64,000 nt of DNA, from positions 754,001-818,000 of the forward strand of contig NZ_CP085524.1 in assembly GCF_004353525.1 (NCBI RefSeq), written 5' to 3'. The stretch is from Zhaonella formicivorans (lineage in GTDB: Bacteria > Bacillota > DUOV01 > Zhaonellaceae). Both the position numbers and the translations under genes were made by a program. The notes under the pieces are model-generated. The model had not been told where the DNA came from and did not search any database. It was given only the letters and a program-made list of their open reading frames with translations. Below are positions 32,991 through 49,569 of this stretch, one piece after another. Position 1 is the stretch's first letter; every line of letters begins with the position of its first letter.

Positions 32991-33030
32991 ATCAATAACA
33001 TAACTTAATAAAATACCTCATCTCTGTGAG

Positions 33031-33213
33031 GTGAGGTAGAGGCGCGAAGGGTCAAGAGTACTTATAAGGATTATGGGAATAAGGTGAATTATAAGGAAAG
33101 GGGCATTCGCCGAAGTTCAATGGCTTCCCAGGCTGTTGAGCTGGGTCTGCATTTAAGAAATGCAGGACTGTCACCCGGTTTTATCCTGGAAACCGGGTGG
33201 AGCACTATCTCAC
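33031..33213 (+). ncRNA. Lysine riboswitch aptamer (L box)
   Basis: P1 pairs GTGAGGTAG (33031-33039) with CTATCTCAC (33205-33213). The core has the L-box landmarks GGTAGAGGCGCGAA, TCAAGAGTA, AAAGGGGCATTCGCCGAAG, CAGGCTGTTGAGCTGGG and the long hairpin TGCATTTAAGAAATGCA, then CACCCGG...CCGGGTGG. Lysine binding should favour the downstream terminator and shut off lysA. A small extra hairpin (CCTCATCTCTGTGAGG, 33016-33031) lies just before P1. Confidence 0.93.
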
Positions 33214-33248
33214 GTACAGGAAAGAGGTGGGCACATACCGAATTTTTG

Positions 33249-43152: not shown

Positions 43153-44161
<1,009 letters not shown>

Positions 44162-46386: not shown

Positions 46387-46917
46387 ATGGACAGGAATAG
46401 AATGAGTGGAAACAGGTTGCACAAAGTGTCGGCAAGTTTTGATTTATGGCTGCAGTTTACGGTAGCGATTGTATTGTTTTTATTGGTAATGGTGCAAATA
46501 TTTTTTAGCGCTTACCCGCTCGGTCTGCTTTTAGATCCGGTTGCCAAAACCTATGGGGAAACATGGCTGGGCAGCCACCCAGCTGCAGCTGTAGCCACAA
46601 ACGAAATTCAGAACAAAATCTGGTCTACAGTAACAATAAAGGCCGAAAAGTATAGTTGTTTAAACAAAGCCAGGTTACTAATCAACGGGCAGTATATCAC
46701 CGATTTCAGGAATAATCCTGTAACGGTTAGAGTCCTGGACGGAGATACGCTTGAGATTGATACCTCGTATTATAAGCATGCCCTTACTTTTAAAATTGTC
46801 GGAGTTTCGATGGATATTGTCTACCCTAAAGTTGGCGCGCTGTTTACAAACGACGATTCTAAGATTCTATTTAGGGTCAAAAGGAACAAAAAGACGGAGG
46901 TACAGCAGGATGGCTAA
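46387..46917 (+). CDS. Membrane-anchored hypothetical protein upstream of hutP
   Basis: A 176-residue protein with one N-terminal helix (FDLWLQFTVAIVLFLLVMVQIFFSAYPLGLLL) and an external or cytosolic beta-rich domain (ARLLINGQYITDFRNNPVTVRVLDGDTLEIDTSYYKHALTFKIVG). The NGQ...DGDTLEID pattern suggests a small beta-sandwich. GGGGGGTG precedes ATG 46387. It overlaps the start of hutP by 8 bp, so the two are translationally coupled. I recognise no family. Confidence 0.65.
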   Translation: MDRNRMSGNRLHKVSASFDLWLQFTVAIVLFLLVMVQIFFSAYPLGLLLDPVAKTYGETWLGSHPAAAVATNEIQNKIWSTVTIKAEKYSCLNKARLLINGQYITDFRNNPVTVRVLDGDTLEIDTSYYKHALTFKIVGVSMDIVYPKVGALFTNDDSKILFRVKRNKKTEVQQDG

Positions 46918-47326
46918 CTATGGAAGTAAGAAAATAGCAAGTGTGGCAATACAGATGGCGCTGTCCGATTCCAGGGAAGAAGAAATCACACTTAAGGCTA
47001 AATTTCTGGAACTAGGAATAAAGACAGCTGCAGTAGATTATGGAGGGGAATATATTACCTCAATTAAGAAGATTGTTGAGCGAGCTGTAGTTGCGGCAAA
47101 GAGGGAAGGGGTAATTAAAGAAACTCATGCTGACGAAGGGGCGGTAGCAGGTGCCACCCGTGAGGCGCTGGCTCAAATAATGCCGAAAGCTATAGGTTTA
47201 AATGTCGGAGGGAAGATTGGTATAGCCCGTCAGCAGGACCACGTTAGCGTAGCAGTCTTTTTTGGTATAGGGCTGCTACATTTAGATGAAGTTGGGATTG
47301 GATTGGGGCACAGGGCAGTTCCTTAA
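46910..47326 (+). CDS. hutP: HutP-family RNA-binding antitermination protein
   Basis: A 138-residue HutP-family protein: VAIQMALSDSREEEITLKAKFLELGIKTAAVDYGGEY, KKIVERAVVAAKREGVIKETHADEGAVAGATREAL, and the C-terminal GKIGIARQQDHVSVAVFFGIGLLHLDEVGIGLGHRAVP. In Bacillus, HutP with L-histidine and Mg2+ binds UAG-rich RNA to allow readthrough of the hut operon terminator. No hut genes are in this window; instead aroH, a trpF-like gene and the aroF operon follow. GGAGGTACAGCAGG sets ATG 46910. The ligand and RNA target here are open; see findings. Confidence 0.85.
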   Translation: MANYGSKKIASVAIQMALSDSREEEITLKAKFLELGIKTAAVDYGGEYITSIKKIVERAVVAAKREGVIKETHADEGAVAGATREALAQIMPKAIGLNVGGKIGIARQQDHVSVAVFFGIGLLHLDEVGIGLGHRAVP

Positions 47327-47343: not shown

Positions 47344-47724
47344 ATGGCAATAAGAGGAATCAGAGGAGCAATTTCTGTTGAGGAAAATAGTGTAACGGCC
47401 ATTAATGCGGCCACTGTAAAGGTCTTGCAAAGCATGATTACAACAAATCAAATTGCGGTTGAAGATATTGTCAGTGTGTTTTTTACTGCGACAGCGGACA
47501 TTGATGCCGTTTACCCTGCCCAGGCTGCCAGGGAAATGGGCTGGGTGAATGTGCCTATGCTTTGTTTTCAAGAAATGCAAGTACGCGATAGTTTAAAAAA
47601 GATAATCAGAGTTTTGTTACATGTAAATACCGACAAAAACCAAGCGGAGATAATACATGTTTATTTGGGCGAAGCACAAAAACTGCGCCCCGATCTGACA
47701 GGAGAAATTAATAATGGCAAATGA
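47344..47724 (+). CDS. aroH: Chorismate mutase, AroH type
   Basis: Converts chorismate to prephenate for phenylalanine and tyrosine. The 126-residue AroH-fold enzyme has the N-terminal IRGIRGAISVEENS (active-site Arg), FFTATADIDAVYPAQAAREMGW and the second Arg/Tyr region in QVRDSLKKIIRVLLHVNT with LGEAQKLRPDL. AGGAGGGGATAGGAAG precedes ATG 47344. This monofunctional AroH complements the separate pheA and tyrA genes downstream, neither of which carries its own mutase domain. Confidence 0.95.
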   Translation: MAIRGIRGAISVEENSVTAINAATVKVLQSMITTNQIAVEDIVSVFFTATADIDAVYPAQAAREMGWVNVPMLCFQEMQVRDSLKKIIRVLLHVNTDKNQAEIIHVYLGEAQKLRPDLTGEINNGK

Positions 47725-47736
47725 GGGTGGTTAAAA

Positions 47737-48273
47737 ATGCGTACTAAAGTCACAGGGATTACGGATACGGCCTCTGCTCTTAAACTTATCGAAGCTGGAG
47801 TAGATGTCTTGGTTTTCGATTTTTCCAAAGAGACTTGCCCCGAAGTTTATCGGGATATAAGCACCAAATTACCTCCTTTGGTTATGAAATCGGGACTTTT
47901 CACTAATTCTCCCAAATACGAAGTTGAGGAATTGGCCACATTTTGCAAGCTGGACCTGCTTGAATTTAAAGGGGAGCAATTTAATAACAATTACCGGGGT
48001 TTCAGCCAACCGGTGATCAAGATTATTGATTCACATAATCACTTGATGAAAAATTGGGCAGAGTCCCACGTGGCGATGCTGCAGTTACCGCTAAGCTTAT
48101 ACAAATCAGCCGAAATCTCTTTTCAACCAGTTATAGTCGATCTTGGCCAAGGGCTTAATTTTTCGCAAATCACCCTCAGGAAACCTTACGCACTTAATTT
48201 TATTCATGATGGTTCAGAAGAACACTTGCAGTTTTTATGTTCTTTAATTAGACAAGCCAATGCCAGTTTTTAA
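47737..48273 (+). CDS. TrpF-like protein lacking the catalytic Cys
   Basis: A 178-residue half-TIM-barrel-like chain. Its N-terminus KVTGITDTASALKLIEAGVDVLVFDF follows the phosphoribosylanthranilate isomerase pattern (normally KICGIT...DALGFVF), but the general-base Cys is Thr, and no clear counterpart is seen of the acid Asp or of the phosphate-binding SSGVE loop; the tail ends HDGSEEHLQFLCSLIRQ. It is probably a non-catalytic or repurposed TrpF paralogue. GAGGGTGGTTAAAA precedes ATG 47737, 12 bp after aroH. No other trp genes are here. Confidence 0.6.
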   Translation: MRTKVTGITDTASALKLIEAGVDVLVFDFSKETCPEVYRDISTKLPPLVMKSGLFTNSPKYEVEELATFCKLDLLEFKGEQFNNNYRGFSQPVIKIIDSHNHLMKNWAESHVAMLQLPLSLYKSAEISFQPVIVDLGQGLNFSQITLRKPYALNFIHDGSEEHLQFLCSLIRQANASF

Positions 48274-48294: not shown

Positions 48295-48323
48295 TTGCAA
48301 ACATTGGCTGAAAATGGTATGAT
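48295..48323 (+). promoter_or_regulatory. Sigma-A promoter of the aroF operon
   Basis: TTGCAA (48295-48300), exactly 17 nt, TATGAT (48318-48323). Transcription should begin near 48330, at the base of a strong 11-bp hairpin. Confidence 0.85.
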
Positions 48324-48406
48324 TTCGTTAATCTATAACTGCAAAAGCGGTTGTAGATAGGTAGGATGGTAGACAGTATGAAAAACGAAGGAGGTAGGAC
48401 GGCGGT

Positions 48407-48478
48407 ATGGTAGAACTACGGTTTGACCTTTGTTTTGTCACTCTCGGAGGGTGGCTTTTTCATTTTTGCAGCCCGTGA
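48407..48478 (+). CDS. Phe-rich leader peptide of the aroF operon
   Basis: A 23-codon frame from ATG 48407 encoding MVELRFDLCF, then VTLGGWLFHFCSP. Four Phe codons (positions 6, 10, 18, 20) and one Trp lie in 23 residues. GAAGGAGG (48388-48395) lies 11 nt upstream of the ATG, a little far but usable. The second Phe codon (48434-48436) directly precedes the terminator 5' arm (48437-48443), so a ribosome paused there by lack of Phe-tRNA would cover that arm. The ORF overlaps the whole terminator. Expression is unproven. Confidence 0.55.
   Translation: MVELRFDLCFVTLGGWLFHFCSP
48437..48460 (+). terminator. Attenuator terminator in the aroF leader
   Basis: GTCACTC (48437-48443), loop TCGGA, GGGTGGC (48449-48455, two G-T pairs), then five Ts, CA, and five more Ts. 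It lies 75 bp before aroF. Confidence 0.75.
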
Positions 48479-48534
48479 GGATGGTGTGGATTTTCATTAG
48501 GATGCGGAAATAATTTTATGAAGGAGGAGTCCAC

Positions 48535-49569
48535 ATGATAGTTGTATTGAATCACGGCGTGACACAGGAACAGGTACAGGCGGTGTTGGACCGCTTGGAC
48601 AGGGAAGGATTTAAAGTCCATTTGTCCAAGGGGGACGCCCGCACCATCATCGGGGTAATAGGCGAAAACACCAAGACAAGGTTGCCCGGTTTAGCTCTGG
48701 AAGCTATGCCGGGGGTCGAAAAAGTGGTACCTATTCTCCAGCCTTTTAAACTTGCAGGCAGGGATTTTAAACCTGAAGATACAGTTATCCAGGTAGGGGA
48801 TTTGGAAATAGGGGGCAAACAAATTCAGGTGGCTGCAGGGCCGTGCGCAGTTGAGAGCCGAGAGCAATTGTTGGAAGCAGCCCGGCTGGTCAAAAAAGCG
48901 GGAGCTACTATTTTGCGTGGTGGCGCCTATAAGCCTAGAACATCACCCTACTCTTTTCAGGGGTTGGAGCAGGAAGGGCTGCGCTTTTTAGCCGAAGCCA
49001 GGGAAGAAACAGGTCTGGCCATTGTAACAGAAGCTACTGATCCCGCTAATTTACAGTTGGTGGCCCAGTACGCAGATATAATTCAAATCGGTGCTCGCAA
49101 TATGCAAAATTTTCAGCTGTTAAAAGAAGCAGGAAAACTCAATAAACCGGTACTTTTAAAGAGAGGTCCCAGCGCCACCATCGAAGAATGGATTCTGGCT
49201 GCGGAATATATTATGGCTGCAGGCAATTACCAGGTGATTTTTTGTGAACGCGGGATTAGAACCTTTGAGACTTATACCAGAAACACCCTTGATTTGAGCA
49301 GCGTACCCCTGATTAAGCAATTAACCCATTTGCCCATTTTTGTCGATCCCAGTCATGGTACAGGTAAGTGGAGTCTGGTGCCGGCCATGGCCAGGGCAGG
49401 AATTGCTGCCGGGGCCGACGGGCTGATTGTGGAAGTTCATCCAAACCCCAGCGAAGCACTGTCCGATGGCCCACAGTCCCTTACTCCCGAGAATTTCGAG
49501 GTAGCGATGAAGGAAGTAAAAGGAGTGGCACATTTGTTAGATAAAGAAGTAGCGAGGCTCAACAAATGA
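48535..49569 (+). CDS. aroF: DAHP synthase with N-terminal regulatory domain
   Basis: First step of the shikimate pathway, joining phosphoenolpyruvate and erythrose-4-phosphate. The 344-residue type I-beta enzyme has an N-terminal ferredoxin-like domain (about residues 1-70), as in Thermotoga, where it mediates aromatic feedback. The TIM-barrel follows: AGPCAVES, GATILRGGAYKPRTSPYSFQG, IQIGARNMQNF, LLKRGPSATIEEWILAAEYI, the metal site VDPSHGTG, and IVEVHPNPSEALSDGPQSL. GAAGGAGGAGTCCAC precedes ATG 48535. It is the first gene of aroF-pheA-tyrA-aroA-cmk, controlled by the leader above. Confidence 0.96.
   Translation: MIVVLNHGVTQEQVQAVLDRLDREGFKVHLSKGDARTIIGVIGENTKTRLPGLALEAMPGVEKVVPILQPFKLAGRDFKPEDTVIQVGDLEIGGKQIQVAAGPCAVESREQLLEAARLVKKAGATILRGGAYKPRTSPYSFQGLEQEGLRFLAEAREETGLAIVTEATDPANLQLVAQYADIIQIGARNMQNFQLLKEAGKLNKPVLLKRGPSATIEEWILAAEYIMAAGNYQVIFCERGIRTFETYTRNTLDLSSVPLIKQLTHLPIFVDPSHGTGKWSLVPAMARAGIAAGADGLIVEVHPNPSEALSDGPQSLTPENFEVAMKEVKGVAHLLDKEVARLNK

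Follow-up and report, generated by a model that had tools for sequence, protein, structure and literature searches.

A HutP-family protein as a candidate regulator of aromatic amino-acid genes, linked to a conserved UAG-type leader repeat in Zhaonella formicivorans and related Firmicutes

HutP is the textbook antiterminator of a single operon, dependent on histidine and magnesium. Analysis of a 64,000-nucleotide stretch of the Zhaonella formicivorans genome (contig NZ_CP085524.1, positions 754,001 to 818,000; hereafter, the window), along with 101 genomes of relatives, points to a new use of this family, which is known from histidine breakdown. We consider it likely that a HutP-type protein represses aroF, the gene for DAHP synthase, in response to an aromatic effector, either by attenuation or by cover of the ribosome-binding site. 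The HutP-type RNA-binding protein encoded at 46910 would have been re-used as a regulator of aromatic amino-acid metabolism; its effector would be an aromatic amino acid or a close metabolite, and the effector-bound protein would bind two clusters of UAG-type triplets with 8-nt spacing in the aroF leader RNA, lowering aroF expression. This proposal draws on observations of two kinds. The repeat is conserved, has a defined strand and position, co-occurs with HutP and precedes a set of aromatic genes; the protein has the HutP fold and, by alignment, altered residues at the ligand site. The original prediction of a HutP paralogue that controls aromatic synthesis is thus supported in its main point, that is, a conserved aroF-leader repeat that co-occurs with HutP.

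The HutP-family gene that was predicted to lie upstream of the aroF leader is located at 46910-47326 on the forward strand, as are all the features of the window described here, and encodes a 138-aa protein, the proposed regulator (PF09021, E 1.9e-50). A weak UAG-like tandem site across its start codon (46890-46913, triple score 14.5) might indicate autoregulation; confidence in this site is low because ribosome-binding sequences can mimic the motif. Downstream, there follow aroH, which encodes a monofunctional chorismate mutase (47344-47724; PF07736, TIGR01796), and a gene for a 178-aa protein (47737-48273). Thus, in the predicted row of hutP, aroH and a trpF-like gene, aroH is borne out by TIGR01796, but the last member resembles TrpF only partly: it lacks a Pfam match, yields partial NCBIfam TrpF matches below the cut-off and is possibly a decayed or repurposed TrpF. 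A 176-aa gene without a Pfam or NCBIfam match (46387-46917) precedes hutP; in 17 of 56 loci, a relative of this gene lies ahead of hutP. HutP relatives are present in 64 of the 101 genomes, 61 of them close (best E up to about 2e-26, our own cut); these 61 genomes are denoted HutP-positive, and the three with weak HutP matches alone (G027, G073 and G082) were counted as HutP-negative in the co-occurrence tests. Of 80 named loci with HutP relatives, 72 have aroH no more than 1.6 kb downstream of hutP, and 51 contain aroF on the same strand.

The statement that there are no hut genes here holds for the examined part of the window but not for the genome, which has a urocanase gene (C1:3134419) some 2.3 Mb from hutP, among other genes that, by eye, appear to be hut genes. 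The sense strand of this hut region contains no period-8 site (best triple score 1.3). Urocanase, scored over the cut-off in 27 genomes, is found in 16 of the 61 HutP-positive and 11 of the 40 HutP-negative genomes. This co-occurrence is not beyond chance across the 101 genomes, and histidine utilisation was rejected as the role of the protein. The window protein is a member of the HutP family and is not a hut-type histidine antiterminator.

The 260 bases that separate the trpF-like gene from aroF, the proposed regulated gene (48535-49569, followed by pheA, tyrA and aroA), contain a promoter-like site, a 5' hairpin, UAG triplets and an intrinsic terminator. The promoter-like site (TTGCAA-17-TATGAT, 48295-48323) is weak because six such sites occur in the region, compared with 5.6 expected. 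TAG is present at all six positions originally listed (48354, 48358, 48362, 48370, 48395 and 48411), and the first UAG does sit, as the prediction had cautioned, within the 3' arm of a predicted hairpin (48331-48358). Cluster 1 (48354-48372) consists of UAG triplets at 48354, 48362 and 48370, and cluster 2 (48395-48413) of UAG at 48395, CGG at 48403 and UAG at 48411, both with an 8-nt period; 22 nt lie between the clusters, and one of the six in-register triplets (CGG) is degenerate. Our motif model R1 matches both clusters (genome positions 802352-802372 and 802391-802411); the unit model scores just two units in each because the third triplet lacks the GG that follows it in the conserved unit. 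In a predicted stem, 48382-48391 pairs with 48427-48436 (element 48382-48436), placing cluster 2 in the loop; this stem adjoins the terminator claimed 3' of the UAGs, which was found as an intrinsic-terminator-like hairpin (48437-48455) with a T tail (first T run to 48460; predicted P 0.97). An Rfam scan of this aroF leader matched no family. The sole Rfam match in the window at the gathering threshold is a lysine riboswitch aptamer (RF00168, 120.8 bits, 33029-33215).

Taken alone, the pattern in the window is hardly beyond chance, and it is the comparative evidence that decides. A single match to TAG-N5-TAG-N5-TAG is unremarkable, given that 0.39 are expected per 64 kb and 32 of 100 shuffles contain one. 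Of 2000 dinucleotide shuffles of the leader, 0.45% contained two TAG pairs 8 nt apart, and none contained two distinct tandem sites with high scores, the latter assessed with a matrix trained on relatives. A motif-like site (score 15.5) also lies at the ilvC ribosome-binding site (window 43159-43177), representing either chance mimicry or a further target.

Conservation of the UAG triplets in relatives had been set beforehand as the test of the prediction; the 8-nt-period repeat is indeed kept in aroF leaders, and it tracks HutP. The conserved motif is (UAGNAYGG)n, with unit frequencies of U(0.69) A(0.92) G(0.91) N A(0.96) Y G(0.92) G(0.97), and GGUAGGAYGGUAGGAYGG-like runs recur in aroF, hutP and aroH leaders. 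Fuzzy matches to such runs numbered 61 in the sense against 2 in the antisense orientation in one set and 76 against 1 in another, the two sets sharing some contigs. The TAG-TAG distances in the named set, measured over 51 aroF leaders, peak at 8 nt, with 35 pairs; a distance of 7 nt occurs once, and no other value between 3 and 24 nt exceeds 8 pairs. A clear peak at 8 nt is not evident in the hutP and aroH leaders of this set, where 10 and 7 pairs, respectively, have this spacing and other spacings reach 12 and 23. A triple-unit score of at least 12 was attained by 64 of the 313 hutP, aroH and aroF leaders (aroF, 35 of 77; hutP, 15 of 127; aroH, 14 of 109), but by no antisense sequence (0 of 313) and no leader of another gene from these loci (0 of 256). 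The target counts, in this set and in the aroF census below, are partly circular because the matrix was trained on partly the same genomes; the antisense and other-gene counts and the raw TAG spacing are free of this circularity. Of the 112 clusters in relatives, 77 contain two strong units, 17 three, 4 four and 14 one, and the gaps between clusters are 15-236 nt. Chance-like motif sites were observed in L091 and L095 (within open reading frames) and in L116, and less certain targets in L098, L107 and L115.

Co-occurrence with HutP was assessed in a census, unselected for the motif, of the upstream regions (about 420 nt each) of 120 full-length aroF genes (G072, unlisted aroF places and partial places, including G043:C29, which has a site, were left out). 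By genome, the tandem motif is found in 35 of 56 HutP-positive and 1 of 27 HutP-negative genomes (p 1.8e-7); by leader, in 35 of 87 and 1 of 33, respectively, and in 0 of 120 antisense sequences. The pattern YAGNAHGGYAG, which was picked after the motif was known, gave 32 of 87 against 0 of 33 leaders, and the plainest test, TAG-N5-TAG, gave 32 of 87 against 4 of 33 (p 0.008), with 4 of 120 antisense. A strong aroF site is absent in 21 of the 56 HutP-positive genomes of the census. The motif precedes aroF in a single HutP-negative genome, G052 (leader L268). In G006, of the same genus, hutP sits at the edge of a contig (C5:239-643); the lack of a HutP match in G052 may stem from recent gene loss, a gap or misassignment of a contig. 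Genome-wide, a strict 18-nt pattern with one mismatch allowed was found in 33 of 61 HutP-positive and 2 of 40 HutP-negative genomes (p 1.2e-7). The reversed pattern is no control: GGTAGGATGGTAGGATGG is identical when reversed, and the reversed pattern is itself HutP-linked (30 of 61 against 3 of 40). Comparisons were made instead with antisense, shuffled and other-gene sequences. All these p-values are optimistic, the kinship of the genomes being ignored in the statistics.

The protein itself matches PF09021 over the entire profile (1-128 of 128; 170.8 bits against a cut-off of 25). The closest folds to its AlphaFold2 model (monomer, pLDDT 95.1) are the HutP structures of Bacillus and Geobacillus (Z 15.8-17.6; 16.3-17.6 for the top matches 1vea, 1wmq, 1wpv and 4ok9), the next unrelated entry scoring 7.3. 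At the sequence level, a PDB search with the window protein alone returned nothing, that with alignment A1 returned no HutP structure, and hhalign of A1 against one Bacillus HutP sequence gave a probability of 6.8. In an alignment that used a second HutP group as a bridge, Gly77 and Gly81, which are invariant among 41 relatives, stand opposite His73 and His77 of B. subtilis HutP (three MAFFT modes agree, at 18-24% identity). We take His73, His77 and His138 of Bacillus HutP to be the metal and L-histidine site. Opposite B. subtilis Glu137-His138, near the C terminus, the aromatic-clade alignment has His-Leu or a gap. By this alignment, the ligand site of the aromatic-clade proteins has probably changed, and the suggestion of perhaps another ligand gains support from the glycines opposite two ligand-site histidines, read from a low-identity alignment. 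A metal site of another make-up is possible because the clade's own His73 and His124 are nearly invariant. The second group comprises four HutP-like proteins, about 30% identical to that of the window (L087:5350-5838, L088:5215-5709, L089:4386-4820 and L090:5240-5734); three of the four (those of L087-L089) keep the HAxxHAT...EH pattern of B. subtilis. Two of the second-group genes, by eye, adjoin PII- and NifH-like genes, and these proteins are possibly regulators of yet other pathways.

Candidate targets were collected by running R1, a sequence-only model built from 37 sites, none of them from the Z. formicivorans genome, over the 101 genomes. In the 30 best genomes, all 30 HutP-positive, the best sites precede aroF (22), hutP (2), aroH (1), a tryptophanase-family gene (1), iorA (1) and a trpX-like gene (1), and the remaining two lie between hutP and aroH. 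Twelve of these 30 sites had trained R1; the other 18 fit as well (13 aroF, iorA, trpX-like, tryptophanase-family and two in the hutP-aroH interval). Outside this tally, the same 30 genomes contain six further matches of equal rank: two at hutP/aroH, one tyrA-like, one DctP-type and two without an assigned place. At weaker E, R1 is unspecific, with matches in 78 of 101 genomes at E up to 1. The 3.3-Mb Z. formicivorans genome yields five matches up to E 5 (individual E 0.2-3.4), two of which are the clusters of the window's aroF leader. The other three lie before a TrpX-like ABC transporter operon (L353; NF041285, 357.1 bits, below the cut-off of 390), with a terminator-like hairpin seen by eye after the run; at the ribosome-binding site of a tryptophanase-family gene (L352; NF009709, 577.9 bits against 285); and before a sodium:solute symporter gene followed by a phenylacetate-CoA ligase gene that is cut by the end of the stretch (L357). 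The leader of the second aroF copy of this genome contains no motif site. In other genomes, sites also precede genes for prephenate dehydrogenase, AMP-ligases, a TrpX-like protein and an SNF-type transporter. The convincing part is the shared function of the target genes rather than the weak individual E-values. Weak sites at position 4270 of L174 and position 7495 of L181 lie near genes that, by eye, encode 2-oxoacid:ferredoxin oxidoreductase-like subunits and are perhaps linked to the iorA target (L225). Several R1 matches were also seen within about 200 bases in G024 (C1:2057165-2057370), a genome that has TRAP and no HutP relative.

Among 77 leaders with strong clusters, a terminator lies downstream in 35, the cluster is within 35 nt of the start codon in 28, and neither applies to 14. 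Physical binding of the protein to the RNA, the identity of the effector and the direction of control are inferred. In terminator leaders, the protein would occupy the purine-rich repeat, which might otherwise pair with the pyrimidine-rich (CACUCCU-type) 5' arm of the terminator, so that occupancy would favour termination in a TRAP-like manner; in leaders without a terminator, it would cover the ribosome-binding site and block translation. Predicted pairing of clusters with the terminator 5' arm is stronger than with upstream windows (-10.3 against -7.0 kcal/mol, p 3e-7), with a modest gain over shuffled arms (p 0.005, mean z -0.55, 4 of 35 below 0.05). In equilibrium folding, the terminator probability falls below 0.5 in 14 of 35 free leaders, and 5 of these 14 exceed 0.8 when the UAGs are held open; several of the 35 shift the opposite way. 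For the window leader, the predicted terminator probability is 0.97 with the UAGs either free or held unpaired. Both proposed modes repress and so suit synthesis and uptake genes; the tryptophanase-family target suits less, repression of a catabolic gene by its own substrate being odd.

The best-surviving alternative, albeit an unlikely one, is Bacillus-style antitermination, in which the liganded HutP relative opens the terminator and raises aroF expression. It would account for the shared fold, for the Bacillus-like arrangement of NAG-type repeats in two groups of three with some 20 nt between them, for the terminator that follows the clusters in the window and for the catabolic tryptophanase-family gene among the targets, and we keep it because the window terminator is predicted at the same probability in either state and cluster 2 lies in the loop of the adjoining stem. 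The terminator opening that the original prediction implied is nevertheless at odds with the position of the clusters, which are upstream of the terminator, not inside it, and, in 28 of the 77 leaders, lie close to the start codon, where binding should repress; in addition, biosynthetic genes are normally repressed by their products.

Ribosome-mediated attenuation is considerably less probable. An open reading frame behind a ribosome-binding site in the window leader (48407-48478, MVELRFDLCFVTLGGWLFHFCSP) spans the terminator and encodes four Phe and one Trp, and a similar one is present in the sister genome G001, but the GWLFHF shared with that genome is simply the translated terminator and T tail. 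Only 8 of the 35 motif-bearing leaders contain a short open reading frame that is preceded by a ribosome-binding site and has at least five aromatic residues, and no common peptide was seen among the 35; a leader peptide was rejected as the general mechanism.

We give hardly any credence to binding of the repeat by TRAP. TRAP binds G/UAG repeats and is encoded in 55 of the 101 genomes, including that of Z. formicivorans, but it needs 11 repeats spaced by 2-3 nt, whereas the window has six in-register triplets with 5-nt spacers. Moreover, the motif does not depend on TRAP among HutP-positive genomes (25 of 44 with TRAP, 8 of 17 without; p 0.57), and among TRAP-positive genomes it goes with HutP (25 of 44 with HutP, 1 of 11 without; p 0.006); as the motif tracks HutP and not TRAP across the 101 genomes, TRAP was rejected as the binder. 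It is equally far-fetched that the repeat is a by-product of purine-rich ribosome-binding sequences or chance rather than an operator: the unit does contain AGGA, a similar score is reached at the ilvC ribosome-binding site (43159) and chance alone would supply TAG-N5-TAG-N5-TAG 0.39 times per 64 kb, but none of the 256 other-gene leaders reaches the threshold, 27 of the 39 aroF leaders with strong clusters belong to the terminator or 'neither' class rather than the start-codon class, and the motif tracks HutP.

Repression by an effector-bound HutP-type protein, our preferred reading, shares features with several known systems. Hut-type HutP antiterminators are hexamers, and the UAG triplets of the Bacillus HutP target are separated by 4-nt spacers. 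The system described here resembles B. subtilis HutP in the Pfam family, the fold, the two three-triplet clusters (in the reported Bacillus target, some 20 nt likewise separate two groups of three NAG triplets) and the nearby intrinsic terminator. It differs in the aromatic gene set in place of hut, in the 8-nt period (5-nt spacers), in the replacement of His73/His77 by the invariant Gly77/Gly81 and the lack of a counterpart to the C-terminal Glu-His, and in the position of the clusters, which precede the terminator or lie close to the ribosome-binding site. If our reading is right, the likeness to TRAP (MtrB) is that of an amino-acid-activated protein acting on spaced (U/G)AG repeats; TRAP is reported to bind about 11 G/UAG repeats spaced by 2-3 nt and, once activated by its amino acid, to cause termination in one leader and to control other genes at the level of translation. 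Unlike the window protein, TRAP belongs to PF02081, and the motif does not track it. T-box leaders attenuate the same gene, aroF, in other sampled genomes (3 of 20 scanned aroF leaders, out of 33 from HutP-negative genomes); no Rfam family was found in 20 HutP-positive aroF leaders, comprising 19 with the motif and the motif-free second copy of Z. formicivorans. The uORFC-13-1 aroF motif of Acholeplasma (PMC8632094) is likewise a candidate attenuator before aroF, but it is described there as uORF-based and reported from Acholeplasma and environmental sequences only; the terms UAG and HutP are absent from the main text of that paper. A literature search of titles and the beginnings of abstracts, which covered 40 of 45 papers containing the word HutP and had most subscription journals outside its reach, yielded no link between HutP and aromatic metabolism and no match combining HutP with 'chorismate mutase'.

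More broadly, we lean, with some reserve, towards the view that a widespread HutP clade of Clostridia-type Firmicutes is the aromatic counterpart of TRAP. Its members would have lost the histidine/metal site, would sense an aromatic effector, recognise a new operator made of clustered UAGNAYGG units and regulate their own gene, and would act, by attenuation or by cover of the ribosome-binding site, on genes of synthesis (aroF, aroH, tyrA), uptake (TrpX-like ABC transporter, symporters), interconversion (iorA, phenylacetate-CoA ligase) and breakdown (tryptophanase family). In 61 of the 101 genomes sampled, the HutP family would then go with a different set of genes, a different operator spacing and a ligand site that, by alignment, has changed. 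If true, this would provide a named regulator of aromatic amino-acid metabolism for many anaerobic Firmicutes, including Moorella, Desulfosporosinus, Pelotomaculum, Syntrophomonas and others, and would imply that two different proteins, TRAP and HutP, have come to use spaced UAG triplets in the control of aromatic genes, in many cases side by side in one cell, TRAP being also encoded in 44 of the 61 HutP-positive genomes.
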